This document shows, piece by piece, positions 20,201 to 32,032 of a stretch of DNA of 64,000 nucleotides (the stretch's first letter is position 1; each line of letters starts with the position of its first letter). The notes beneath the pieces were generated by a model. It had not been told where the DNA came from and made no database searches. It saw only the letters and a list, made by a program, of their open reading frames with translations. Position numbers and translations under genes: made by a program. Source of the DNA: a bacterium. GTDB taxonomy: Bacteria > UBP6 > UBA1177. Location of the stretch: NCBI GenBank assembly GCA_017405875.1, contig JAFQZM010000035.1:1-64000 (forward strand), given 5' to 3'.

Positions 20201-21556
20201 ATGCTTCTGGCACAAATACTTTCAGTCGTGATTTTTCTTGCAATGTTCATTCTCATGGTGACTGAAAAAATCGAACGACATCTTGTGACGCTCGGCTGTG
20301 CGGTTCTTACGGCGATTTTTGTTTTCGGGCTCGGGATGCACAGTTTCGATGCGATCATGGAGACGCTGAACGTAAAAATAATTCTCACGAAAAGTTTCTG
20401 GTACAGCGCGGGCGACGTTCCCGAAAACTCGACCGGAATCAACTGGGCGACGATATTTTTTATTGCCGGAATGATGGTAATGGTCGAAGGAATGGCGGCT
20501 TCAGGCTTCTTCCGCTGGCTCTGCATGAGGCTCGCAAAACTTGTTCACTACCGCGTAATCTATATTTTTATCGCGTTCATGATCATGTCGTTCGCCCTTT
20601 CGATGTTTATTGACAGCATCACCGTAATCCTCTTTCTGGCAGCGGTCACGGTCGAACTTTCCAGACTCTTGAAATTCAATCCGGTAAGCATGATATTAGC
20701 TGAAATTTTCTGCGCCAACTTAGGCGGCTCGGCGACCATGTGCGGTGATCCGCCTAACATCATAATCGGCACAAGCCTCGGCTACTCTTTCGGAGACTTC
20801 CTCTCGAACACGGGAATTATTGCCTTTATCTGCCTTGCGTTCACGCTCGTTTATTTCACTCTCATGTGCCGCAAGGAATATATACACGCCGGAAAGGACA
20901 TCGATCTTTCGACGATTCCGAAACCCAAATCGGCAATAGTCAGCAGAGTAGGCTTCAGCAACAGCTGCATCATCTTTTCGATCGCGGTAGTGCTCCTCGT
21001 TACGCACGCCGAAACAGGGCTTACAGTCGCATCGATCGGGCTTGGAATCGCAACACTCACGCTTCTTGCTTCCCCCAGATACGCAACAAGGATATTAAAG
21101 CATGTAGACTACAAAACGCTGCTCTTTTTCATCGGACTTTTCTTTGTCGTAGGCGGGCTTGAACAGACCGGAATCCTCAAACTCATCGCCGATTTCATCG
21201 GAAAAGTTTCAGCCGGAAACGCCCATGTGATGATTGCAATAATCATCTGGGTTTCGGCAATTGCAAGTGCATTCATTGACAACATTCCTTTTGCTGCGAC
21301 AATGATCCCGGTCATAAAATCGCTTTCTGCAACGACCGGAGTTTCGCTTGAAACAATGGCTTGGGCGCTTTCGATGGGAACCGACATCGGCGGCAGCGGA
21401 ACACCCATCGGAGCCAGCGCAAACGTAGTCGGAACCTCGGTTTCGGCAAAATCAGGTCACCCAGTAGGCTGGGGCAGATACTGCAAACTCAGCGCACCCG
21501 CAGCTGTCATGGTCATCGTGATCAGCACGATCTACATTTTTGTTAAGTATTTGTGA
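20201..21556 (+). CDS. ArsB/NhaD/SLC13-type (IT superfamily) membrane transporter
   Basis: A 451-aa polytopic inner-membrane protein with about 11 hydrophobic segments. The two signature loops MCGDPPNIIIGTS (near 185) and GGSGTPIGASANVVGTS (near 405) are the paired conserved regions of the ion transporter superfamily that includes NhaD Na+/H+ antiporters, ArsB and the P protein. ArsB itself is unlikely, since no ars genes are nearby. Na+/H+ exchange or an organic anion is possible. GAGGTG precedes the ATG. The next genes downstream are remnants on the other strand. Confidence 0.85.
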   Translation: MLLAQILSVVIFLAMFILMVTEKIERHLVTLGCAVLTAIFVFGLGMHSFDAIMETLNVKIILTKSFWYSAGDVPENSTGINWATIFFIAGMMVMVEGMAASGFFRWLCMRLAKLVHYRVIYIFIAFMIMSFALSMFIDSITVILFLAAVTVELSRLLKFNPVSMILAEIFCANLGGSATMCGDPPNIIIGTSLGYSFGDFLSNTGIIAFICLAFTLVYFTLMCRKEYIHAGKDIDLSTIPKPKSAIVSRVGFSNSCIIFSIAVVLLVTHAETGLTVASIGLGIATLTLLASPRYATRILKHVDYKTLLFFIGLFFVVGGLEQTGILKLIADFIGKVSAGNAHVMIAIIIWVSAIASAFIDNIPFAATMIPVIKSLSATTGVSLETMAWALSMGTDIGGSGTPIGASANVVGTSVSAKSGHPVGWGRYCKLSAPAAVMVIVISTIYIFVKYL

Positions 21557-21559
21557 TTT

Positions 21560-21886
21560 TCAGCAGAATTTTTCATACATCGTTTTGATTCTATCCAGCC
21601 ACTTTCCGCGAAGTTCAGGCGGCGAAATGATCTCGCTGTCAGGAGAATACGAGAAGACTCTGGCGATGATCTCTTTGTCGCGCTTCCCCACCGGCAAAGT
21701 GATTTCAAGGCACTTCTTCCCGTCAATCACGCACTCTTTAACCTGCTGATTTTTATGCCATTTCTGATTTTTGACATAGTAGTATGAAGGCTCGATCAGG
21801 CGTTCGCTCTTCTCTCCGTCGGCATTCAGATACTTGATTAAAACGCAGCGTTTCAGCATGAACGAACTCAGAATGTTCCTGAAATG
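21560..21886 (-). pseudogene. Decayed WYL-domain transcriptional regulator
   Basis: The surviving 99-codon frame (start ATG 21859) matches the C-terminal half of the intact WYL regulator at 27014-28024: KRCVxIxYLNADGEKSERL, then CLEITLPVG, then YSPDSEI. Homology continues upstream of the ATG in the same frame (FRNILSSFM) to about 21886, where a TAG stop (21889-21887) and foreign sequence begin. The N-terminal helix-turn-helix half is gone. Inside, 75 codons present in the intact copy between RLIEP and YYYV are missing without a frame change. The deletion ends share GGCTCGA/GGTTCGA, suggesting a short-homology deletion. The two copies differ at many bases, so this is an old paralogue, not a recent duplicate. 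Confidence 0.85.
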
Positions 21887-22110
21887 CTACGAATCAGTAC
21901 CGCATTTGAAAAGCGAACTCGGCAAATATTTCAGATTTTATGATTACAAAAGAGATCATTCAGCTCATGGATACAGAACTCCGTGGGAAATTTATGAAAA
22001 TTCCAAATTTGGGAATACGGGAGAAACGGCATGACAGCTCATGCTGCGATAAAAAACACTTTTTGGGAGGATTTTTTCTGTCCAGAAATGCTTGACCATT
22101 ATATTTTATT
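21887..22110 (+). mobile_element. IS3-family transposase C-terminal remnant and right end
   Basis: From about 21888 the plus strand encodes YESVPHLKSELGKYFRFYDY, then HSAHGYRTPWEIYE, the conserved tail of IS3-family OrfB (normally HSALGYRTPxExY), ending at TGA 22034. Beyond it, CTGTCCAGAAATGCTTGACCA (22079-22098) resembles the CTGTCC...GACCATTATA ends of such elements. Everything upstream of the last 50 or so codons, including the DDE residues, is missing. The break coincides with the end of WYL homology, so the fragment is fused to the decayed regulator. Not functional. Confidence 0.75.
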
Positions 22111-22132
22111 TTTATGAGATTTTCCGGTTAAC

Positions 22133-23491
22133 TCATAGACAGAATGTCATGTAAGCCGGAATACACAGGATGCCGTCGTTTTCAACAAGATTTCTCGGAT
22201 GAATGATGTAAGAGTCTCCGATTCTTTCCTTGAATTTATTGTTGAATTTGAGCAGAGACGCGGTTTTATAGCGGTTTGAAGACTTCACTTCGACCGGAAA
22301 AATCTTGTATTCCAGTTTGCTGTTGTTGGAAAGAATGAAATCTATTTCCATGTCGTTACGATGTTTTTCATCGTTGTAGTGATTGTAAAAATAGAGTTTG
22401 TGACCGTTAGCGGCAAGCATTTGGGCTACAGCGTTTTCGTATAGCATTCCTTCATTGAAAGAAAGTGCGCCGCTGAGAATCTGATTGTAAATTTCTTTCT
22501 CAAGCAGTTCGTTTTCATCAAAAGTGTGACTTAAAAGCAGCCCTGTATCGCCGAGATAACATTTGATGTAACCACGGCTTTCATTCAGTGACAGACCGAC
22601 ATTCGGATCAGTACAGAGAAAACATTCGTTTGTCACCATGGAATCCGACAGCCAGAAAAAAGTTTCGTTGTAATCTGTCACATCGGATTTTTCCGAAACT
22701 TTCTTGAAAACAACGCGCTTTTCGTGTTGCGAAAGAAACCCTGGAATGGCATCGAAAATGGAAATGACTTTACTTCTGTAACGGGCTTTAATTTTCATCA
22801 TATCGCTGCGGTACAAATCAAGAATATCCCGTTTTTCTCTATCCACAGAATAAAAATCACGTCCGCTTTCAATAAAAATATCAACGCATTTCGGCATTCC
22901 GCCGACAAGAATATACTGCCTGAAAAGAAGCATCGCCCGATTGTGAAGACTTCTTTCAAGCGGTTCTTTTTTCAAAAAGCAGTTTTTTATGTAATTTATA
23001 AGGTTTTCCTCTCCTAATGCCTCCGCAAACTCCTCAAAGTCCATCGGAAACATTTTAAGATGACGTTCTTCAGACGGGATTACGATATTTTTAACATTCT
23101 CCTTTATCGAAATCAAAGAGCCCGTCTCGATATAATCGTATCTTCCGTCGGCAACAAGATATTTTATTGCCTCCCGTGCTTTGGGGAAGCACTGGACTTC
23201 GTCAAAAATTATCAAACTTTTACGCTTGTAGAGTTTTGTCTTGAATTCAGAGGAAAGAAGCATAAACAAAGTGTCGAGATCGTTGAGATAATCGGTAAAA
23301 TAAGATTTGACATTTTCGCTTGCGATTGCGAAATCGACCGCAATGAAACTTTCATACTCCTTTGCTGCGAACTCTCTGGCAACAGTCGATTTACCTATTC
23401 GTCTGGCACCTTCAATCAAAATTGCCTTGCTTCCGCGGCATTCTTTTTTCCAGTTTAGAAGTCTGTCATAAATTTTACGTTTAAAAATCAT
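22133..23491 (-). CDS. AAA ATPase with C-terminal DUF4143 domain
   Basis: A 452-aa protein. The N-terminal AAA_14 domain has Walker A GARRIGKS (28-35), Walker B LIIFDEVQ near 97-104 and an ETGSLISI sensor segment. The C-terminal DUF4143 region contains NDMEIDFIL and FPVEVKSS, the D-x(n)-E-x-K layout of a restriction-endonuclease-like fold, which may be catalytically active. The family is abundant and patchily distributed in anaerobes; its role is unknown and may be defence or mobile-element related. The ATG at 23491 is preferred because GAGGAA precedes it. The ATG at 23536 lies upstream of the likely transcription start. The promoter region carries three phased repeats. Confidence 0.85.
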   Translation of the reverse strand: MIFKRKIYDRLLNWKKECRGSKAILIEGARRIGKSTVAREFAAKEYESFIAVDFAIASENVKSYFTDYLNDLDTLFMLLSSEFKTKLYKRKSLIIFDEVQCFPKAREAIKYLVADGRYDYIETGSLISIKENVKNIVIPSEERHLKMFPMDFEEFAEALGEENLINYIKNCFLKKEPLERSLHNRAMLLFRQYILVGGMPKCVDIFIESGRDFYSVDREKRDILDLYRSDMMKIKARYRSKVISIFDAIPGFLSQHEKRVVFKKVSEKSDVTDYNETFFWLSDSMVTNECFLCTDPNVGLSLNESRGYIKCYLGDTGLLLSHTFDENELLEKEIYNQILSGALSFNEGMLYENAVAQMLAANGHKLYFYNHYNDEKHRNDMEIDFILSNNSKLEYKIFPVEVKSSNRYKTASLLKFNNKFKERIGDSYIIHPRNLVENDGILCIPAYMTFCL

Positions 23492-23507
23492 TTTTTCCTC
23501 TTTTGTC

Positions 23508-23536
23508 ATTATGCGCACATATAAAAAAGCAACCAA
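23508..23536 (-). promoter_or_regulatory. Promoter of the AAA/DUF4143 ATPase gene
   Basis: On the minus strand TTGGTT (23536-23531), 17 bp, CATAAT (23513-23508), 17 bp before the ATG at 23491. The -10 box lies inside the first of three ATTATGCGCA-like repeats. Confidence 0.5.
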
Positions 23537-23585
23537 CTCCGATTATGCGCATGTTTAACAAGTAAACAAAAACCGATTACGCGCA
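23508..23585. repeat. Three ATTAYGCGCA repeats at exact 34-bp spacing (operator-like)
   Basis: ATTATGCGCA at 23508-23517, ATTATGCGCA at 23542-23551 and ATTACGCGCA at 23576-23585. Both steps are exactly 34 bp. The flanks are partly shared (CCGATTA before copies 2 and 3, and TTWTAAC after). Copy 1 overlaps the -10 box of the ATPase promoter, copies 2 and 3 lie upstream of the -35. The arrangement suggests a set of protein-binding sites rather than a CRISPR array. Confidence 0.65.
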
Positions 23586-23671
23586 GTTATAACAGAAAAA
23601 ATAAAAAACACAAATTATTAGACTGTCAGAGTTTTCGGGACACACATTGCCTAAAGTAGAAATTTTTCTCC

Positions 23672-23711
23672 ATACCAATCGGCAATAAAAGCAAAAATTG
23701 CCGATCGGTAT
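23672..23711. repeat. 40-bp palindrome related to the AbiE operator
   Basis: Arms ATACCAATCGGCAAT and ATTGCCGATCGGTAT (15 bp, one mismatch) around a 10-bp spacer. The core TCGGCAA-12 bp-TTGCCGA (23679-23704) is the same length and sequence as the core in the promoter of the AbiE-like antitoxin at 26269-26294. It lies downstream of the LRAT gene and about 190 bp upstream of the ATPase start. It may also form an RNA hairpin after the LRAT gene, but no T-run follows. Confidence 0.6.
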
Positions 23712-23754
23712 AGAATTTCTTGTCAATGAATTTGAAAAGCAGAGATGGGAAAAA

Positions 23755-24366
23755 TCAGATGTTTGTTGCTCTTCTTTCTGCGATCGCCTCAAGAAATCTC
23801 TGCACCTGACTTGATTCGCGTACTCCTGTTTTGCACCATACGGCGAAATGCTCGCAGTTGTTGAACACAAGGTTGTACTTGCCTTTTCTTCCGAGCTGGC
23901 TTTCGGCTCTTTTGACGGTCTCTTCAGGTGAATAGATGGTGATTTCGTTGCCGAAAAAGGAGTCGATAGCGAGTTTGAGAAGTCCTCCGAAGTCAAACAG
24001 TTCGGGATTTTCGACATAATCGCGGTAAGCTTCGAAATCAACGACGAAAACATTTGAGGCACCGTCTTTGAACTGTGAGAGCGTCGCCCTGCGGACACAG
24101 ATATCGCCGCCGAAATCGCTTCCTTCATTGGAAAAATGGATGACTTTGCCTCTGCCGGTGTATATTCCGTAGTGGTCATAAACTCCGCCGATCCTGTGAA
24201 CGCCGATGACATCGCCTTTTCTAAGTTCCGAATCGGAGACCGTGCACTTGAAATCGCAGGCTTTTTTGCGCGTTTTCTTTGGAAAAGGTGGTTTTTGAAT
24301 GATTGTTCGAGTCAAATCATTGAGAGGATTGTTAGATTTGCCGAAACCTGAACCGAAAATACTCAT
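23755..24366 (-). CDS. LRAT-domain (NlpC/P60-like) protein
   Basis: A 203-aa protein. After about 45 basic, loosely ordered residues comes RKGDVIGVHR, then DHYGIYTG with His65, VIHFS with His77, and NNCEHFAVWC with Cys171. This His-His-Cys layout and spacing equal the catalytic triad of the lecithin:retinol acyltransferase (LRAT/HRASLS) branch of the NlpC/P60 superfamily. Family members are acyltransferases or phospholipases; a few bacterial forms may be peptidases. No signal peptide is seen, so it acts in the cytoplasm or at the inner membrane face. The ATG at 24366 has AGGGAG 8 bp upstream. It lies 95 bp after the AbiE-like toxin gene on the same strand. Native substrate unknown; lipid attack as a defence effector is a speculation. 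Confidence 0.8.
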   Translation of the reverse strand: MSIFGSGFGKSNNPLNDLTRTIIQKPPFPKKTRKKACDFKCTVSDSELRKGDVIGVHRIGGVYDHYGIYTGRGKVIHFSNEGSDFGGDICVRRATLSQFKDGASNVFVVDFEAYRDYVENPELFDFGGLLKLAIDSFFGNEITIYSPEETVKRAESQLGRKGKYNLVFNNCEHFAVWCKTGVRESSQVQRFLEAIAERRATNI

Positions 24367-24461
24367 TTTGCTCTCCCTAAAAATTGATAATAAACCAAAA
24401 CCACTTGATTTTACGCATGAGACTGGGCGTATGTTGACCAAGGTGAAATAAAATCAGATTT

Positions 24462-25517
24462 TTAGTTGAGAATGATTTTATCCCCTTCCATTATCCGCAG
24501 AGCTTCGACAGCATAGGCAAAACCATCGATATCAAGTTTTCTCAAGAAAGAGATTTTTGAGTATTTTGAAGCCGAAATATTGGCATTTTTATAAATCATC
24601 GGATCTTTGATATGAGTTATCTCGCGATTTTTCAGGATAGAGGCTGCAAGATACATTACTTTACCGGCTTTCCCGGGAAATTTTTCGGTACTGAAATGCT
24701 CCTCAAAAATATAAGTTTTCAAGGCTTTTATTCCTGTAAGTAACAATGGATAGGAAGTGCCGATCATGCCTCTTCCGACTATGCAAGCCGCTGTTTCAAA
24801 AGTGTCGTTCAGGACATCATCAACGGAAATATTTTTATTTCTGTAAGATATTTCGGCATTTACGTTCATCATATAAGAATCGTATATATCTTCCGAATTT
24901 TCACAAAAATCGAAAAGATTGGCGATATCAAACATTTGCTTTGCTATTTCCAGTTCTTTGCCGATTCCGAACGGAATGCCTGTTGTATGAGGAGCAAACG
25001 CTGTCAGTTTGTCACCCAAGAGAGAGTCAACAGTCGGCACCGTTACGAAAGAATACGGCTCTTCAGTAACAATCAGGCTGTTTCTGACAGGTATTTTTAT
25101 CGTTTTTGAATAGTGGTTCTCCTCGAACAGAATATCCAGCAGGATGTAAAGTTCATTATCCGAGCAGGGCGAATTATATGTGAATCTGTAGTGGTGCTTT
25201 TCAATGTTTCCTCGTCCTTTTCTTATCTGCTGTTCGACCTTTTGAAAAGGAAAAATCCTGGCGGCTTCATCCAGAAAAGAGGCGACATCCGTGCCGGGTT
25301 TTACTACGATATCGATATCAGTTGAAAGTCTCTTCGGTGATTCAGAGAGCAGCATCACCGCTGTTCCTCCTTTGAAAATAAAGGGTAATCCGACTCCTGC
25401 CAGAACATCCAGCAATCCCAAGGCGTAGATGCTTCTTTCAAGAATCGCAGGATCGACTTTTCCGGATTTTCTTAAAAACTCGATATGATTTTTTGAAAAA
25501 TTTTCCTTGGAAAGCAT
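24462..25517 (-). CDS. AbiEii-like nucleotidyltransferase toxin
   Basis: A 351-aa nucleotidyltransferase of the AbiEii/MenT type. Motif I is FKGGTAVML followed by STDIDIVV (the GG-T...DxD metal and nucleotide site, about residues 48-71). Further C-terminal GDKLTAFAPHTTG supplies the conserved Lys-Thr pair. AbiEii toxins transfer nucleotides and halt growth in type IV toxin-antitoxin pairs and abortive phage infection. Its ATG directly follows the TAG of the antitoxin gene (TAGATG), so expression is coupled. Confidence 0.88.
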   Translation of the reverse strand: MLSKENFSKNHIEFLRKSGKVDPAILERSIYALGLLDVLAGVGLPFIFKGGTAVMLLSESPKRLSTDIDIVVKPGTDVASFLDEAARIFPFQKVEQQIRKGRGNIEKHHYRFTYNSPCSDNELYILLDILFEENHYSKTIKIPVRNSLIVTEEPYSFVTVPTVDSLLGDKLTAFAPHTTGIPFGIGKELEIAKQMFDIANLFDFCENSEDIYDSYMMNVNAEISYRNKNISVDDVLNDTFETAACIVGRGMIGTSYPLLLTGIKALKTYIFEEHFSTEKFPGKAGKVMYLAASILKNREITHIKDPMIYKNANISASKYSKISFLRKLDIDGFAYAVEALRIMEGDKIILN

Positions 25518-26246
25518 CTATACTCCGGTCAGCAGATCAACAGATGTGTTGTTTTTCAAGAAAGCGGTGATTTCTTCAGATTTGTTCCGTCTTCCGGCAT
25601 AGCGGAAAAGTTTGCTCCGATCCACCGCATATTTCTCGAACATTCTTTCAACGGCTTCAGGATAATCATCAACAGAAAGGATGGATTTCACATTTTTGTC
25701 GGCAAAAAGATCTACAATTATCTTTTCTATAGCCACATGATGGGAATTTATGCGTTTTTTCGGCGTTTCACTTATAAGGCGGTCGATGACCACCGTTCCG
25801 TCGAAAGAATAATATTCCAGTTCCTTTTGAGAAGGACGGAGCAGCACGCCGCTCTTACGGGTTTCAGACAAAAAAGAATAAACAAATTCGCAGCCGCTGT
25901 TTTCGACCTCAAGAAAAACAATATTCTTTGCGATCAGATGGTTAAAAAACTCGTTAAGCCAGCTGAGTTCCCAGACCTGAAAATTCAAAAGCGGAAATTT
26001 TATCTCGACTTCGCTAATGATTTCAGAAACTTCTTCTGAATAATGATTTTCATAACTCTTTAGATTTTTATTGATATAGCGGTTCCTTCCGACCCTGACA
26101 ATAGTTTTTGAATCAAGCAGACGAGCCATCAGATTGCGGAATGAAGTGGCTTTGAAATCGGAATTTTCTTTATAAGCCGCCTCTAAAATCTCCTCTCTGC
26201 CAAAAACCTTTTTATCTATATTTTTGACTAAAATTTCTCTTTCCAT
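25518..26246 (-). CDS. AbiEi-like antitoxin/transcriptional regulator (DUF6577 type)
   Basis: A 242-aa partner of the downstream toxin. The first about 70 residues (FGREEILEAAY, SFRNLMARLLDSKTIVRVGRNRY) form a winged-helix-like DNA-binding domain. The rest, including FPLLNFQVWELSWLNEF and FLEVE, matches the DUF6577 antitoxins found beside AbiEii toxins. Type IV antitoxins often repress their own promoter through inverted repeats, and such a palindrome sits right across this promoter. The start at ATG 26246 has GAGGGG 7 bp upstream. The ATG at 26303 would lie within the promoter. Same-strand genes on both sides make a six-gene block. Confidence 0.82.
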   Translation of the reverse strand: MEREILVKNIDKKVFGREEILEAAYKENSDFKATSFRNLMARLLDSKTIVRVGRNRYINKNLKSYENHYSEEVSEIISEVEIKFPLLNFQVWELSWLNEFFNHLIAKNIVFLEVENSGCEFVYSFLSETRKSGVLLRPSQKELEYYSFDGTVVIDRLISETPKKRINSHHVAIEKIIVDLFADKNVKSILSVDDYPEAVERMFEKYAVDRSKLFRYAGRRNKSEEITAFLKNNTSVDLLTGV

Positions 26247-26262
26247 TTTTGTTTCCCCTCTA

Positions 26263-26303
26263 ACCATTTCGGCAAATTTTATAATTTTTGCCGATTTGGT
26301 CAA
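26263..26303 (-). promoter_or_regulatory. Promoter and palindromic operator of the AbiE-like pair
   Basis: On the minus strand TTGACC (26303-26298), 16 bp, TAAAAT (26281-26276). A palindrome, core TCGGCAAA-10 bp-TTTGCCGA (26269-26294), extended arms to 26263-26300, covers the spacer and -10 box. That is the placement expected for autorepression by the antitoxin. Confidence 0.7.
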
Positions 26304-26466
26304 GAAAAAATCCTAAATGAACTCAAATTTCACGTTTATTATAGCAAATGATAAATATGTGTCAAATATTAAATTTTAAAAAATTGCTAAAAATTAAAAT
26401 ATTTTTATTGTTTGATGTCTGTTGTTGTAAAATAGAAAAACAAAAATTGTCGAAGTAAACAGTGTG

Positions 26467-27042
26467 TTAGTACGAACGGCCTTTTCTCATGCTTGCCACG
26501 TATTCGCTGCGAAGTTCGTCGGTTTCTTCGAGAGAGCCGTTTCCGTTCTGAAGTTTTACCGCGCTTCTGAGAAAGCGTGCTTCGGCAGAATCTTCATCAA
26601 GTTCGGCGTATTCGATCCAGAGAGGGTTCGGATGCCCGTGCCTGAAAAAGCCGTCTTCGGGCGAGAGAAAATCGACAGTCGTCGCGACATCGGTGAAATC
26701 GACGAAACCTTTGAGGTCATTCTTTGTGCGTTTGTCGAAAATCCAGAAATCCTCGTCGCTTTTCGGTGCCCACATGATGCCAATTAAAGGTTTTTTCCTT
26801 CTGTCTTTGCCGTAGACTGCCACGATATCGCCTTTTCTGAAAGGATGCGGCAGGGTGATGTAATTCTGGTCAAACCAGACGCTTTCGTAGTCGGCTTTGT
26901 TTTTCGGTTTGAGGTATCTGCGCAGGATATCGCGGTCGTGTTCGCTGAACTGCCAGCCGATCTTTATAAGGTATTCGCGCACGTCCTTTGAGGGGATCAT
27001 CGCGATTATTTCTTCATTTGTAGGGATCTTCTTTTCTCTCAT
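26467..27042 (-). CDS. Hypothetical protein linked to a WYL regulator
   Basis: A 191-aa protein, no signal peptide or membrane segment. Near residue 25 is YLIKIGWQFSEHDRDIL, then LPHPFRKGDIVAVYG near 63-77 and HGHPNPLWIEYAELDE near 138-153. I recognise this pattern (an iGxxFS N-terminal helix, then PxPFxxGDIV, then HPNPLxxEY) from hypothetical proteins common in gut Firmicutes, with no assigned function. Its ATG, with AAGAAGG 5 bp upstream, lies inside the last codons of the WYL regulator gene (29-bp overlap), so it is translated from the same message. It may be the target or partner of that regulator. Confidence 0.7.
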   Translation of the reverse strand: MREKKIPTNEEIIAMIPSKDVREYLIKIGWQFSEHDRDILRRYLKPKNKADYESVWFDQNYITLPHPFRKGDIVAVYGKDRRKKPLIGIMWAPKSDEDFWIFDKRTKNDLKGFVDFTDVATTVDFLSPEDGFFRHGHPNPLWIEYAELDEDSAEARFLRSAVKLQNGNGSLEETDELRSEYVASMRKGRSY

Positions 27043-28024
27043 TTTTGCCTTCTTTTTTTACTTTGCAGAACTTCTGATACATATCTCTGATCCTTTTAAG
27101 CCACTTTTCACGCAGCTGCGGCGGTGAAACGATCTCGCTGTCGGGGGAATAAGACAAAACTCTGGCGATTATCTCCTTGTCGCGGTCTCCTACCGGAAGA
27201 GTTATTTCGAGGCATTTTCTGCCGTCAACCGTGCACTCTCTGACTTTCTGGTTTTTGTGCCAGATCTGGTTTCTCACATAGTAGCAGGCCGGTTCGAAAA
27301 CGCGGATCACGGCAGTTGACGAAGTTTCAGACTTGAACATTCCGAAAGAGCCGTCGATATATTCGTCAAGCTCGCGCTTCGTGACGGGATATTCAAAATT
27401 TTCGCCGCTCACTTCGCTTGAAATAAAGCGCGAAAGAAGAAAAACGCGGAGTGCGTTCCTTTTGCGGCAGAAGGCGATGACATACCACTTTCCGAGATAG
27501 TTCATGAGCTTCAGCGGCTCGATGAGTCTCTCGCTCTTTTCACCGTCGGCATTCAGGTAGGTTATCTGAACGCACCTTTTTGTCATGAAAGAACTGAGGA
27601 TATTCCTGAAATCCTTCAGATCCATGATGTCGATATCGGATGAATCGTAGGCAATATGATCCATGATCTCGTCGAAATCGGGCGGAATGTAGCCCGAAAT
27701 GCTCTTCAGAATATCTTCGGAAATCACCGGAATGTAGGGCAGGCCGTCAAGTTTAAGCGATTCGCTGATGCGTTTGACGAAAATGTAATAAAGGACGGCG
27801 TCTTCAAGCGAATCGAAAAGCATGTCGAAGGGCGTTTCATAGACATATCCGCCCGCACTCTGCCTGTATTTTATCGGCGCGGAAAGGAAATCTCGCATAT
27901 ATTCGATATCGCGCTTTATTGTGTCAATGTGGACTTCAAAGCGGTCTGAGACCTCCTTTCTCGTGACGAAACCTTTAGTTTTTATCACGTGGTTGATGTA
28001 AACGATCCTTTCAAGATTTGACAT
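27014..28024 (-). CDS. WYL-domain transcriptional regulator (YafY/BrxR/CapW-like)
   Basis: A 336-aa regulator. N-terminal winged helix-turn-helix (residues about 1-55, TRKEVSDRFEVHIDTIKRDI), a middle WYL domain (VQITYLNADGEKSERLIEPL then GKWYVIAFCRKRNALRVFLLSRF) and a C-terminal WCX-like extension. This architecture is common in repressors of defence loci (BrxR, CapW) and in general regulators. ATG 28024 follows AAGGAGG. A 15-bp palindrome at 28073-28087 sits in its promoter region. It heads the co-directional accessory block, which suggests it controls at least the next gene. A decayed paralogue lies at 21560-21886. Confidence 0.88.
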   Translation of the reverse strand: MSNLERIVYINHVIKTKGFVTRKEVSDRFEVHIDTIKRDIEYMRDFLSAPIKYRQSAGGYVYETPFDMLFDSLEDAVLYYIFVKRISESLKLDGLPYIPVISEDILKSISGYIPPDFDEIMDHIAYDSSDIDIMDLKDFRNILSSFMTKRCVQITYLNADGEKSERLIEPLKLMNYLGKWYVIAFCRKRNALRVFLLSRFISSEVSGENFEYPVTKRELDEYIDGSFGMFKSETSSTAVIRVFEPACYYVRNQIWHKNQKVRECTVDGRKCLEITLPVGDRDKEIIARVLSYSPDSEIVSPPQLREKWLKRIRDMYQKFCKVKKEGKNERKEDPYK

Positions 28025-28072
28025 TCTAGCCTCCTTAATCAAAAAAACCGGCCGCATTTTACCGGCGAGGGT

Positions 28073-28087
28073 GGGCATATAATGCCC
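28073..28087. repeat. GGGCATATAATGCCC palindrome, operator-like
   Basis: A perfect 6-bp inverted repeat (GGGCAT/ATGCCC) around ATA, 49 bp upstream of the WYL regulator start, containing -10-like sequence on both strands. Its position between the divergent WYL and endA genes suits an autoregulatory operator. Confidence 0.5.
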
Positions 28088-28143
28088 AAGCTGAGAAAAA
28101 TTTCACTTTTTTGTGATTTTTTTCGGTTTTTATTGAAAAAAAC

Positions 28144-28152
28144 TGTTATAAT
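28144..28152 (+). promoter_or_regulatory. Extended -10 promoter of endA
   Basis: TGTTATAAT (TGn-TATAAT) at 28144-28152, with no good -35. The ATG follows 33 bp downstream. Confidence 0.45.
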
Positions 28153-28184
28153 GCGCCGGTTTTGGCTGGCTGAGGAATTAAATT

Positions 28185-28940
28185 ATGAAAAAACTTCTGA
28201 TTTTTCTTACTTTTTCGTTAGTAATAGCCGTTTTTGTTTTCGCGGCGGAACAGCAGAAGGGAAACACCGAAATAAACTCGTTTTCAAAGTCGAAAAAATT
28301 TCTCGACAAGGTGATTTACGGCGATGAGAAGGTGAGAAAGACCTTTTACTGCGGCTGTTCCTACGACAGAAAGCAGAAAGTTATTGCTGAGGGTTGTAGC
28401 TATTTTGATGCAAAGAATCATTCGCGCAGCAAAAGGGTAGAATGGGAACACATCGTTCCGGCGGCCGCTTTCGGCGGAAAGCTGAAAGAGTGGAAAGATG
28501 GCGCTCCGCAGTGCGTCGACAGCAAAGGAAAACGTTTCAAAGGGCGCAACTGCGCTTCAAAAATGAATAAACAGTTCCAGTTCATGCAGGCAGATATGTA
28601 CAACCTCGTTCCCGCGATCGGAAAGGTCAATGCAGACCGCTCGAATTTCGATTACGGCGAGATTCAGGGCGAAGAAAGGGTTTACGGCAACTGCGATTTC
28701 GAAGTCAAAAACAACACCGCCGAGCCGAGAGAATCGATCCGCGGCGATATTGCCAGAACCTATTTTTACATGGATTCGGCATATCCTGGTTTCGGGATCG
28801 TGAACGACAAAAACCGCAGAATGTTAGAGGCGTGGGATAAAGCAGATCCCGTTGACGAATGGGAATGCAAAAGAGCCGCAGAAATAGAAAAGATCCAGAA
28901 AAATCAGAATCTTATCTTAAAAGACCGCTGCAAAAAATAA
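28185..28940 (+). CDS. endA: Periplasmic endonuclease I (EndA family)
   Basis: A 251-aa secreted non-specific nuclease of the endonuclease I family. A signal peptide (cleaved near FVFA|AE) sends it to the periplasm. The CGCSYDRK motif, EWEHIVPA with catalytic His89, CxxR..NCASKMNK and NLVPAIGKVNADRSN segments match EndA/Vvn/Dns proteins, including the disulfide cysteines. Typical roles are degrading incoming DNA or scavenging nucleotides. It ends back to back with the convergent lipoprotein gene (stops touch at 28940/28941). Confidence 0.93.
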   Translation: MKKLLIFLTFSLVIAVFVFAAEQQKGNTEINSFSKSKKFLDKVIYGDEKVRKTFYCGCSYDRKQKVIAEGCSYFDAKNHSRSKRVEWEHIVPAAAFGGKLKEWKDGAPQCVDSKGKRFKGRNCASKMNKQFQFMQADMYNLVPAIGKVNADRSNFDYGEIQGEERVYGNCDFEVKNNTAEPRESIRGDIARTYFYMDSAYPGFGIVNDKNRRMLEAWDKADPVDEWECKRAAEIEKIQKNQNLILKDRCKK

Positions 28941-30458
28941 TTATTTAAGGAATTCCAGCGGCGGCATGAATTTGTCCGCTTTGTAGAGAGATGTCTGCCA
29001 GTCTTCAGTTTTCTCCATGAAGAGTTCCCAGACGACTTCGCCTTCATGTGTTACCTCGAAAAACCTTGAAGTCTGCTGCATATCGTAAAATCCTGCCGTA
29101 ACGAAAATGTTGTCGTTTACCATACGGTCGGCATCGCCCCAATATTCGCTCCACCATCCTTTTCCGAGGTCTCTGCCGTCGAATTCGAAAATCATTTCGG
29201 CGGTCATATTCGTTTCATCAATGGCGTATTCGACTATTCTGCTAAAGCCTCTTTCCGCCGTGCCGTTGTCAAAGAAAATGACTTTGTTTCCGTTGACTCC
29301 GTTGATTTCAGGTTCGTGGGCAAGTTCAAACCACGGATTTTCGCTGTTTCCGACAAATGTGAAATCGCCGTTTTTGCCAAGGCGCCAGATTATAGCTCCT
29401 GTCGCCATATCGATTTTGAAGAAAGTAGAGAAATTGCGTGAATTGATATAAACAATCCCGTCTTCCTTGAACATTGAAACGCTGTTTGTGTGCGTCCAGT
29501 CAAGCCATACGTCGCCGCTTGTGTTGTCTGAACAGTCGGGTTTTTCAAAATAATTTCTGTAATCCCAGCTCCAGAGTTCAGCGTATGAATCGGCATCGAG
29601 ATTGACGATCCTGTCTCCGACGATACAAGTGTCATAAACTGCCTGCGGAAATGTCACCGAGCCGTCTTTCATTTTGTAGTATGCGTGATTCCAGCTTCCT
29701 GGACCGTAGTAATAACTCATTATTTCCGGAGATTTCCAGACGATGTTGCCTTCGAGATCTATTTCGATCGCCTCTTCAGCCAGGGAATCGTATGCTACCG
29801 CATCTTTAAGGAGACCTATAAGGATCGTCTGCTTTTCAGGATCCCATGCGACATCCCCCAATGCACTCAGATACCACTGGTCATATTCGTAGTACCAGAC
29901 GACTTCGCCGTCAGTATCAACCATTACGGTTATGGGAAAAATATGGTCGTAACTTGTCGCGGCATATTGGAACAGGACAAAACCTTCAGCTGTTTTTTCC
30001 AAATTCCTGTCGCCGAGATACATTGCGGGAATATGATCCGGAGCGTTCCCGGAACGGAACTCTGTCGTTGCAAGAAGTTCGGGTTCTTCTTCGTCTGAAT
30101 AGATCTCAATTTTGTAGTCGAGATTTTCTCTCATTCCCCAAAGAAAGAAATAGTGCTCGTTTTTAGCCGTTTTCTCGCTGATTTTGTAGCCTTTGTGGGT
30201 GTCGGAATAGTATTTCACGAAAGTTTTCCGTTCCTCTGTTGTCGAGAAGGTGAGCCTGCACGAAAGTACATTTTCTTTGTTTTCCTCGACTTTCAGGTCT
30301 GAAATCAGTTCTGTTCCGGAATCGCTGTCGTCATCGGGGATTTCATCTGAATCGGAAACTTCGTCCGCATCTGATTTTGACGGAACAAGAGCCTTGTTCT
30401 CGCACGAAATGCACAAAAATGCTAAAAAAATTAAAGTGATAGTAAAAAATCTAGTCAT
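28941..30458 (-). CDS. Arylsulfotransferase (ASST)-like lipoprotein, copy 1
   Basis: A 505-aa lipoprotein, lipobox CIS|C (Cys19), followed by an Asp/Ser-rich linker (about residues 28-50). A small beta domain (to about 135) is followed by a six-bladed beta-propeller region with repeated VDTDGEVVWYY, IDLEGNIVWKSP, and MATGAIIWRLGK blades. Histidines in SWNHAYY, WTHTNS and LAHEPEI sit where ASST-family propellers carry catalytic and substrate-binding His. ASST enzymes move sulfate between phenols; whether this one is active is not known. It is paralogous over its full length to the upstream gene, with which it overlaps 8 bp. Both end in KFMPPLEFL. Confidence 0.78.
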   Translation of the reverse strand: MTRFFTITLIFLAFLCISCENKALVPSKSDADEVSDSDEIPDDDSDSGTELISDLKVEENKENVLSCRLTFSTTEERKTFVKYYSDTHKGYKISEKTAKNEHYFFLWGMRENLDYKIEIYSDEEEPELLATTEFRSGNAPDHIPAMYLGDRNLEKTAEGFVLFQYAATSYDHIFPITVMVDTDGEVVWYYEYDQWYLSALGDVAWDPEKQTILIGLLKDAVAYDSLAEEAIEIDLEGNIVWKSPEIMSYYYGPGSWNHAYYKMKDGSVTFPQAVYDTCIVGDRIVNLDADSYAELWSWDYRNYFEKPDCSDNTSGDVWLDWTHTNSVSMFKEDGIVYINSRNFSTFFKIDMATGAIIWRLGKNGDFTFVGNSENPWFELAHEPEINGVNGNKVIFFDNGTAERGFSRIVEYAIDETNMTAEMIFEFDGRDLGKGWWSEYWGDADRMVNDNIFVTAGFYDMQQTSRFFEVTHEGEVVWELFMEKTEDWQTSLYKADKFMPPLEFLK

Positions 30459-31998
30459 TTAAAAACTCCAGCGGAGGCATGAATTTTTCGGCATTGTAAA
30501 GCTCTATCATAAAACCCTCTTCCTGATATGTGTAAATCTCCCAGACGACTCTTCCGTCACGCGTGACTTCAAAAATCGAGGAATTCTGCGATTCGTCGAC
30601 ATTGCCTTTGGTAACAAGGAAGTTTCCGTTTTCAAGATAATCGGCATCTCCGCTCCCTATGTCTGCAAACCAGGGGTGTCCTGAAACAAATCCGTCATAT
30701 TCAAAAGTTATCTCGGCAGTCATGGCATCTTCGTCGATTTCATATTCAATGATTCTTGAATAAAAACGATCCTTCATCCCGTTATCGTAAAAGAGGAGAC
30801 GCTTTCTCGAAGCATCCATGAATTTCGGGTCATGCGTATTTGTCGGCCATGGGTAGGGGTGTTCGGAAAGCATGGTGAAATCAGCGTCTTTGCCGAATTT
30901 CCAGATAACTTCCTTTGTTTCCATGTTCATTTTGTAGAAACCGAGCCAGAGAGAGTTGAAATAGAGAATATTTTCATCCTTGAACATCTTGGCTGAATTC
31001 GTATGAGTCCAGTCGCACCAGAGAACATACGCATCATCATTGCACGTCACCGTGTCAAAATAATCGGGTGAATCAAAATATCCCCAGTTCCAGAGTTCGT
31101 TGTAGTCCCTGTCAACATTCACTATTCTGTCGCTGACTACATGATTATCGAAATCATACTGTGCCCGGATAAAAAGGAGCGTGTCATCATCGAGAAGCCT
31201 GTAGATATGATGCCACGTCGTTTCGGTGTAGAGGGAGCCGGGAAGTCCCGGAGATTTCCAGAGAATGTTTCCTTCCATATCGATTTCCAGACCTTCTTCA
31301 GTCAATACATCTTCCATAAACCATTTCTGAATGCCTAAAAACAGAGTATTCGTCTTTTTCTGGTAGGAAGGATCAGTCAGAAGTGAAAAACCTGGAAGAT
31401 AGTGCTCGAAATACCAGACGACAAAACCGTCGGTATCTACCATGAAGACTATAGGTTCCATTCTCTCCTGATCGGGTGAGGACTGCTGCGTCACTATAAG
31501 AAAACCGGGCTGGACACTTTCTTTTTCATTTGTGACAAGGCGCAGAGGGAAAATGGAACTCGGAACTTTTCCTGAATGGAACTCTGTCGTTGCAAGAAGC
31601 TCCGGTGTTTTTTCATCCGAATAGATTTCAATTGTGTAATTGAGATTTTCCCTCATTCCCCAGAGGAAGAAATAGTGCTCGTTTTTAGCCGTTTCTTCCG
31701 TGATTTTGTAGCCGGAATGATTTGCTGAGTAATATTTCACAAAAGTTTTTCTTTCATCAGGCGTTGAGAATGTGAGTCTGCACGAAAGGACGTTTTTATC
31801 GTTTCCCTCGACTTTCAGATTGAAAAGAGGTCCCTGCTCCGTGTCGGCATCGTCATCAGGTGTTTCATCTGCATCTCCGTCGTGAGCAGTATCGCTGTCA
31901 TCATCGGAAATTTCCTGAACAGGACCGGAAAGTTTGTTTTCGCACGAAACAGAAAAAATCAGCACAAACACACAAAATATTATCGAAAATCTACGCAT
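30451..31998 (-). CDS. Arylsulfotransferase (ASST)-like lipoprotein, copy 2
   Basis: A 515-aa paralogue of the following gene: lipobox SVS|C (Cys19), an Asp/Thr-rich linker, the same NVLSCRLTFST domain, the same propeller blades, and WTHTNS plus the ending KFMPPLEFL. Start at ATG 31998, with AGGAAG 5 bp upstream. The ATG at 32025 has no such site. The THD segment (NTHDPKF) replaces copy 1's AHEPEI, keeping the His. The tandem, overlapping arrangement and clear divergence show an old duplication. Both are first in the unit behind a good promoter, probably facing the periplasm or cell surface. Confidence 0.78.
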   Translation of the reverse strand: MRRFSIIFCVFVLIFSVSCENKLSGPVQEISDDDSDTAHDGDADETPDDDADTEQGPLFNLKVEGNDKNVLSCRLTFSTPDERKTFVKYYSANHSGYKITEETAKNEHYFFLWGMRENLNYTIEIYSDEKTPELLATTEFHSGKVPSSIFPLRLVTNEKESVQPGFLIVTQQSSPDQERMEPIVFMVDTDGFVVWYFEHYLPGFSLLTDPSYQKKTNTLFLGIQKWFMEDVLTEEGLEIDMEGNILWKSPGLPGSLYTETTWHHIYRLLDDDTLLFIRAQYDFDNHVVSDRIVNVDRDYNELWNWGYFDSPDYFDTVTCNDDAYVLWCDWTHTNSAKMFKDENILYFNSLWLGFYKMNMETKEVIWKFGKDADFTMLSEHPYPWPTNTHDPKFMDASRKRLLFYDNGMKDRFYSRIIEYEIDEDAMTAEITFEYDGFVSGHPWFADIGSGDADYLENGNFLVTKGNVDESQNSSIFEVTRDGRVVWEIYTYQEEGFMIELYNAEKFMPPLEFLND

Positions 31999-32032
31999 GA
32001 TCACTTCCTGAAAATCAACAAACAACCCTCTT

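Follow-up and report, generated by a model that had tools for sequence, protein, structure and literature searches.

A defence-type island of an uncultured UBP6 bacterium as a probable local instance of a WYL-governed regulon of exchangeable cassettes

Genes and boundaries of the island

The window analysed here is a whole stretch of 64,000 nucleotides from a UBP6 bacterium (positions 1 to 64,000 of contig JAFQZM010000035.1, GenBank assembly GCA_017405875.1), and the subject of this work is a row of six minus-strand genes within it, headed by a WYL regulator, that probably belongs to a regulon of exchangeable defence cassettes. By coordinate, the six open reading frames (ORFs) run in the order DUF4143-LRAT-AbiEii-AbiEi-p191-WYL, and all are intact. 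An earlier note on this DNA had described such a row as a possible defence-type island with a WYL regulator at its head, and this description is supported: five of the genes were confirmed by their ORFs and by Pfam or PADLOC matches, and the sixth, p191, is intact and has no match above threshold. The island occupies 21558-28182 (no strand assigned), between the genes for a citrate-type CitMHS transporter (stop at 21556) and the endonuclease I EndoI (ATG at 28185). It was recognized as a single insertion because the same gap is empty in three genomes of the genus, G002, G006 and G001 (junctions G002:C77, G006:C18 and G001:C33), where the CitMHS stop directly abuts the EndoI start and, to within a few base pairs (bp), window positions 21557-21565 meet 28182-28185. 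The GC content is 0.39-0.42 over 22-27 kb, compared with about 0.46 in the surroundings. The island looks like a mosaic, since identity to G002 differs between its parts (about 98% for DUF4143, about 94% for LRAT, and about 71-97% for p191 and WYL). Left of the DUF4143 gene lie a decayed second WYL copy that, by sequence comparison, has lost residues 189-260 or so through an internal deletion (21560-21895, minus strand), and the C-terminal integrase-core remnant of an IS3-type transposase (21855-22031, plus strand; rve_3, E 6.8e-5), which bears out the suggestion that a mobile-element remnant flanks the block.

All comparisons rest on metagenome-assembled genomes (MAGs), mechanical ORF calls and kin genomes, with many contig ends falling inside islands; the main set comprised 15 genomes, and the wider operator scan 28 genomes of the phylum. 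Homologous records named in databases are mostly rumen or rumen-type MAGs, several of them labelled UBP6, and the genus is uncultured. Three chromosomal sites in the genus host islands with the WYL-p191 core or operator-headed genes. The first is the EndoI/CitMHS site of the window, and a WYL copy also lies beside EndoI in G009, G010 and G013. The second is xseB-yfiH, which has a conserved right flank, is essentially empty in G000 and G006 and carries an island of about 12 kb in G010. The third precedes a transglutaminase-type gene; it is occupied by WYL-p191 in G003, and in G013 by a gene of 340 aa that the operator heads.

The regulator, p191 and the LRAT protein

The proposed master regulator is a WYL-WCX protein of 336 aa with a helix-turn-helix (HTH) domain (27014-28024, minus strand; Pfam WYL 4.2e-17, WCX, HTH_11). 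Position 28024 was the better choice of start, and the alternative 354-aa ORF runs through the promoter and operator. The domain set of HTH, WYL and WCX is that of BrxR/CapW-type defence regulators, and a palindromic site in the own promoter and adjacent defence genes, as those regulators have, are also present. Island-type orthologues that are 76-97% identical occur in 10 relatives.

The 191-aa protein p191 (26467-27042, minus strand) overlaps or adjoins WYL in every copy whose contig reaches there. No match to it was found in Pfam, NCBIfam, PADLOC or PHROGs, no sequence match of note in the PDB, and no fold match at E<=0.001 for its structural model (pLDDT 70); weak matches to Tudor/PWWP-like barrels were discarded. 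p191 was not found outside the genus in a scan of 84,980 species, and neither viral contigs nor phage records contained it. Because it is coupled to WYL, p191 may act as a co-regulator or sensor. The 3' third of the gene (window 26467-26700) is 95% identical to G002 DNA and the remainder about 73%, and the C-terminal half of the protein is nearly identical across all copies in the genus. Paralogues of about 60% identity (L055 9351-10004 and L064 9976-10629) carry an extra hydrophobic C-terminal helix, and have proteins of 241 and 265 aa, not WYL, as neighbours.

The LRAT gene encodes a protein of 203 aa (23755-24366, minus strand; Pfam LRAT 9.1e-25) in which the triad H65, H77 and C171 is invariant among all aligned members and an NCEHF motif is present. 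Its sequence matches PLAAT proteins (E 1e-8), and its model, with a mean pLDDT of only 62, resembles human HRASLS2/PLAAT3 structures (E 1e-6, TMt up to 0.85). The predicted permuted NlpC/P60 fold and the His-His-Cys triad thus place it in the LRAT/PLAAT family, and we propose that it may be an effector that attacks lipids as an acyltransferase or phospholipase. PADLOC holds no model for such a protein, and no report linking LRAT to antiphage activity was found in the open-access literature. Relatives in viral contigs share 28-39% identity with it, and none of the other block proteins of the window was found within about 5 kb of them; a phage origin was discarded as an account of the WYL-p191-LRAT trio, the viral relatives having no such partners nearby. 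Nearly all genomes of the genus carry a second LRAT paralogue (about 50%; L051 7875-8414 and equivalents), which has no operator and is possibly a housekeeping copy.

A conserved core and exchangeable cargo

Eleven island-type copies of p191 were counted (the window, G002, G003:C1, G007, two in G008, two in G009, G010:C17, G012 and G013). WYL lies immediately upstream in 10 of the 10 copies whose contig reaches there, and 9 of the 11 have LRAT no more than about 2 kb downstream, so the conserved core is WYL plus p191, usually with LRAT. This conservation supports part of the earlier interpretation of the block. The earlier note had named, as support for a system, the recurrence of at least three of the genes in unrelated hosts, and the trio was found in one genus only; it had also taken LRAT and p191 genes that are never co-located with the other members as a sign of mere accumulation, and they were joined with WYL in those nine copies.

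The slot between p191 and LRAT holds an AbiE pair in the window alone, an MntA-like nucleotidyltransferase with a HEPN protein in G007, G008:C16 and G012, and nothing in the remaining copies. G002 has no AbiE, and the flanks of the window insertion (24471-26473, minus strand) lie 12 bp apart there; the AbiE pair is cargo, inserted exactly where three relatives hold the HEPN-MNT pair. The pair consists of AbiEi (DUF6577; 25518-26303, minus strand, probable ATG at 26246; Pfam DUF6577 5.2e-54, PADLOC AbiEi 1.2e-75) and the nucleotidyltransferase AbiEii (24462-25517, minus strand; Pfam 6.6e-15, PADLOC AbiEii 1.7e-119), which retains a GGT...DID motif, and the genes alone give the tandem of antitoxin and nucleotidyltransferase required of AbiE type IV toxin-antitoxin systems.

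The DUF4143 gene encodes an AAA_14/DUF4143 ATPase (22133-23536, minus strand, probable ATG at 23491; Pfam 2.5e-21/2.5e-17) that PADLOC lists as the candidate PDC-S01; the PADLOC scan that had been proposed for the block thus recognized AbiEi, AbiEii and this candidate, and neither LRAT nor p191. Such ATPases occur in the window, in G002 (a 99% identical copy), and in G008:C27 and G010:C17 (reverse orientation); in G004 one stands by itself at the yfiH site. They vary among islands in presence, subfamily and orientation, and are recurrent cargo. In G003:C19, the genes that precede LRAT are a GTPase pair and not WYL-p191. G017, which belongs to a different genus within the family, has a WYL gene with an AbiE pair from another subfamily (DUF6088 and AbiEii) directly behind it (L209 1529-4187), and WYL beside AbiE therefore probably arose more than once.

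A palindromic operator at a fixed distance from the -10 box

We found a putative operator, an 18-bp palindrome with the consensus TTGGGCAnnATnYGCCCA, before the WYL and LRAT genes. The site of the WYL-p191 operon, TTGGGCATTATATGCCCA (28072-28089, minus strand), has no mismatch to the genus consensus and is followed by a -10 box TAAAAT at 28056-28061; that of LRAT, TTGGTCAACATACGCCCA (24424-24441, minus strand), has one mismatch, and its TAAAAT box lies at 24408-24413. Operator-like palindromes had been noticed in the gaps between the genes, and this one stands well above chance: two sites at <=1 mismatch in the window, compared with 0.01 expected from dinucleotide shuffles. They are the only such sites in the whole 2.5-Mb genome. 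The 15 genomes hold 53 sites at <=1 mismatch, compared with none for a reversed-pattern control, and about six of the 53 are background-like, sitting inside genes with no -10 box. The exact degenerate pattern yielded 46 sites in the 28 phylum genomes, all within one family, and none in the control; the operator with its -10 pattern was not found in viral contigs.

Among 49 distinct sites, TATAAT (<=1 mismatch) starts exactly 10 bp past the palindrome in 39, and every other offset accounts for at most five. With the -10 box placed at -12 to -7, the palindrome covers -40 to -23, with its centre near -32. At 17-bp spacing there is no TTGACA-like hexamer, the sole candidate being the left half-site at 21 bp, and an A/T tract lies upstream of the palindrome. 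The information content of the aligned sites is concentrated in the palindrome and the -10 box. Most WYL promoters carry a second inverted repeat (GGGTATAATTTGCCC) over the -10 box, which is degenerate in the window and suggests possible autorepression by WYL.

Operator targets and the link between regulator and site

The operator heads WYL-p191 (12 sites), LRAT (8) and c6, an acidic protein of 131 aa (about 11), whose ATG lies 37 bp past the palindrome in most copies. It also heads, in relatives, an IIGP/AIG1-like GTPase pair, three consecutive dynamins, SLFN_AlbA_2 proteins, a coiled-coil protein with HerA, a BnzB-homologue operon (PADLOC 3e-115), PDC-M09A-like and TerB proteins, and an AAA-ATPase/PDDEXK protein. 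The common thread of the genes is a shared promoter and operator, and in relatives further defence cassettes begin with it too. The c6 gene (L052 2924-3319 and 10 other loci) lies at the far end of yfiH-site islands, has the operator before nearly all its copies, and matched neither PHROGs nor Pfam.

Operator alleles track the cassette and not the chromosomal site. Within one cassette class longer promoter stretches are held in common, and different classes keep the palindrome and the -10 box while spacer and flanks diverge. Every genome with sites has an island-type WYL of 76-97% identity (in G001 only as a contig-end fragment, in G011 with stop codons in frame), and there are no sites in G004, G005, G006 and G014, where nothing more than short WYL fragments or paralogues with 58-65% identity occurs. 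In G013 and G003, a single island WYL lies on one contig and operators lie on others, that is, in trans. Six genomes carry a core WYL paralogue (65%) for which the corresponding position reads TCAGGC-n-GCCTGA, and a 59% WYL from a different genus (G016) comes with two divergent TTGGACA operators. WYL is likely to be the binder of the palindrome because no other operator target is as constant as its gene, because it co-occurs with the sites, and because its paralogues carry correspondingly changed palindromes, a coupled change of regulator and site.

A proposed regulon and its alternatives

The block is, in our judgement, probably the local instance of one WYL-governed modular regulon of swappable defence cassettes. 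In the proposed mechanism, a small island of WYL and p191, usually followed by LRAT, sits at one of the three sites, and each defence cassette that joins would bring a promoter of its own, in which the palindrome lies at about -40 to -23 and there is a -10 box and no correctly spaced -35. The WYL protein would bind these palindromes in cis and in trans, and its control would probably be exerted at the -35 region. Upon infection or DNA damage, its WYL domain may sense a nucleic-acid ligand, as DriD and PafBC sense single-stranded DNA (ssDNA), and all cassettes would then be switched together. LRAT would act on membrane lipids as an acyltransferase or phospholipase, alongside whichever GTPase, nuclease or HerA cassettes exist, and the AbiE and HEPN-MNT pairs would be toxin-antitoxin-type cargo placed behind p191. 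The inducing signal and the anti-phage outcome are putative, and the cassettes are assigned an anti-phage function by homology only. With moderate confidence, we lean towards a broader form of this proposal, a plug-in immune regulon in which no fewer than eight unrelated families of genes, spread over three sites, each carry a promoter that already bears the operator of one WYL, so that new genes would come at once under a common alarm; p191 and c6 would be alarm components, and LRAT an uncatalogued lipid-attacking effector.

Several points weigh against the regulon. Binding of the operator by WYL, and control through it, are predicted from sequence; the operator sites are related by descent, and their counts are not independent; and the association of WYL with operators is partly one of physical linkage. 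A few cassettes (c21/HerA and BnzB) have the palindrome with a weaker or shifted -10 box, and the AbiE and DUF4143 genes of the window, with no operator of their own, would be members by position only. GTPase and DUF4143 families also serve non-defence uses, and p191 enters with a putative role. Moreover, BrxR and CapW, both known WYL proteins of defence systems, act by repression, contrary to our choice of an activator (PMC9122601, PMC9122588).

This last point bears on the direction of control, for which the balance tips slightly towards activation. The promoter geometry favours activation over a repression that covers -35, because a palindrome over a poor -35 at a fixed distance from the -10 box matches the DriD arrangement, and a site so placed, as with DriD and PafBC, is what these promoters have. 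If the regulon is real, a BrxR/CapW-type repressor that blocks -35 and is released on infection is a possible but less favoured alternative: the nearest studied defence WYL proteins repress (PMC9122601, PMC9122588), and the second inverted repeat lies over the -10 box in many WYL promoters, but CapW palindromes overlap -10 (PMC9122588), whereas here the centre is at -32 and there is no usable -35 at 17-bp spacing.

It is unlikely that accessory genes simply piled up at hotspots, the palindrome being a promoter relic copied with its flanks and no regulator being shared. Two of the sites are integration hotspots with common flanks, longer promoter sequence is common within each cassette class, and the differing identity of island parts to G002 indicates ongoing exchange; however, the palindrome and the -10 box are kept across classes despite diverged spacers and flanks, no sites occur where the island WYL is missing, and a WYL paralogue has a matched, altered palindrome. 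It is quite improbable that the palindrome is an integron-like recombination site that moves cassettes. Palindromes do lie at cassette boundaries, and the block that is 94% identical between G000 and G002 starts beside one in G002, but the fixed 10-bp spacing to the -10 box, the orientation towards the downstream gene and the cassette-specific alleles speak against it, and an integron-type array with integrase and att-type sites was rejected, the block ORFs containing no integrase and just the IS3-type remnant. The palindrome may still aid homologous exchange. Least probable of all is the earlier note's suggestion of a single, undescribed defence system made up of WYL, p191, AbiE, LRAT and DUF4143 proteins: the six genes are adjacent and co-oriented and the trio recurs jointly, but a fixed system of this kind was rejected as largely refuted by the table of copies, in which AbiE appears once, HEPN-MNT replaces it three times, the others have nothing in the slot, DUF4143 is variable and often reversed, and LRAT has its own promoter and can follow a GTPase pair.

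Relation to known systems and significance

The proposed regulon resembles the pEFER defence island, in which BrxR represses through the inverted-repeat boxes R-BOX1 and R-BOX2 before its own gene and the defence operon (PMC9122601), in that a WYL gene lies within a defence island and inverted repeats precede regulator and defence genes. Unlike pEFER with its two boxes, the islands described here have up to six operators each, placed over -35, with swappable unrelated cassettes at several sites and operators in trans. CapW is likewise a WYL-WCX regulator beside defence genes with a palindromic promoter site; a single CBASS operon is under its control, from a site that overlaps -10 (PMC9122588), whereas here there are multiple cassettes and the main site covers -40 to -23. 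DriD sites overlap -35 at a constant distance from -10 with a poor -35 sequence (PMC12340889), and PafBC engages a -26 motif (PMC11804915). Both activators share with the present case a single regulator, several promoters and the fixed -10 distance over a poor -35, and their ligand is ssDNA (PMC12340889, PMC11804915); they control DNA-damage genes and not a defence island, and the ligand and direction proposed here are putative. RptR, likewise a single regulator, is a repressor that governs a phage defence island and, in the available part of its report (PMC12255303), is not presented as a WYL protein. The PLAAT/LRAT family and permuted NlpC/P60 toxins such as Tox-Act1 (PMC12994826) have the same H-H-C permuted papain fold and lipid-acting relatives, whereas the LRAT of the window is operator-headed inside a defence island and absent from PADLOC models. 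The core defence hotspots of P. aeruginosa and E. coli, as far as the available parts of their reports describe them (PMC10250203, PMC10121019), similarly have conserved flanks and variable defence cargo, and differ in the shared operator that links the cargo here. No report of a shared operator linking the cargo of defence islands was found in the open-access literature.

The proposal addresses whether systems packed into one defence island act jointly, and how a new cassette becomes regulated. Sequence alone predicts the regulator, the 18-bp operator, the promoter geometry and the cassettes under control, and each of these predictions is testable in vitro. Defence genes, such as that for the acidic c6, could be found by operator rather than by neighbourhood, and an LRAT/PLAAT-like enzyme is nominated as a candidate defence effector. 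If the proposal is true, a patchwork defence island would be wired as a single response in uncultured, mostly rumen bacteria.

Further features of the locus

Upstream of the DUF4143 gene, window 23505-23580 holds three repeats of the TTATGCGCA/TTACGCGCA type, with a motif distinct from the WYL operator, perhaps belonging to a control region of its own. Next to them, about 100 bp (window 23577-23677) are missing from an otherwise 98% identical stretch of G002; the segment contains a hairpin, CCATACCAATCGGCAAT...ATTGCCGATCGGTATAG, and may be a small palindromic insert or a terminator. On the other side of the island, window 28941-32025 encodes a pair of neighbouring, paralogous lipoproteins whose N-terminal linkers are rich in Asp, Ser and Glu; the pair is conserved beside EndoI throughout the genus.

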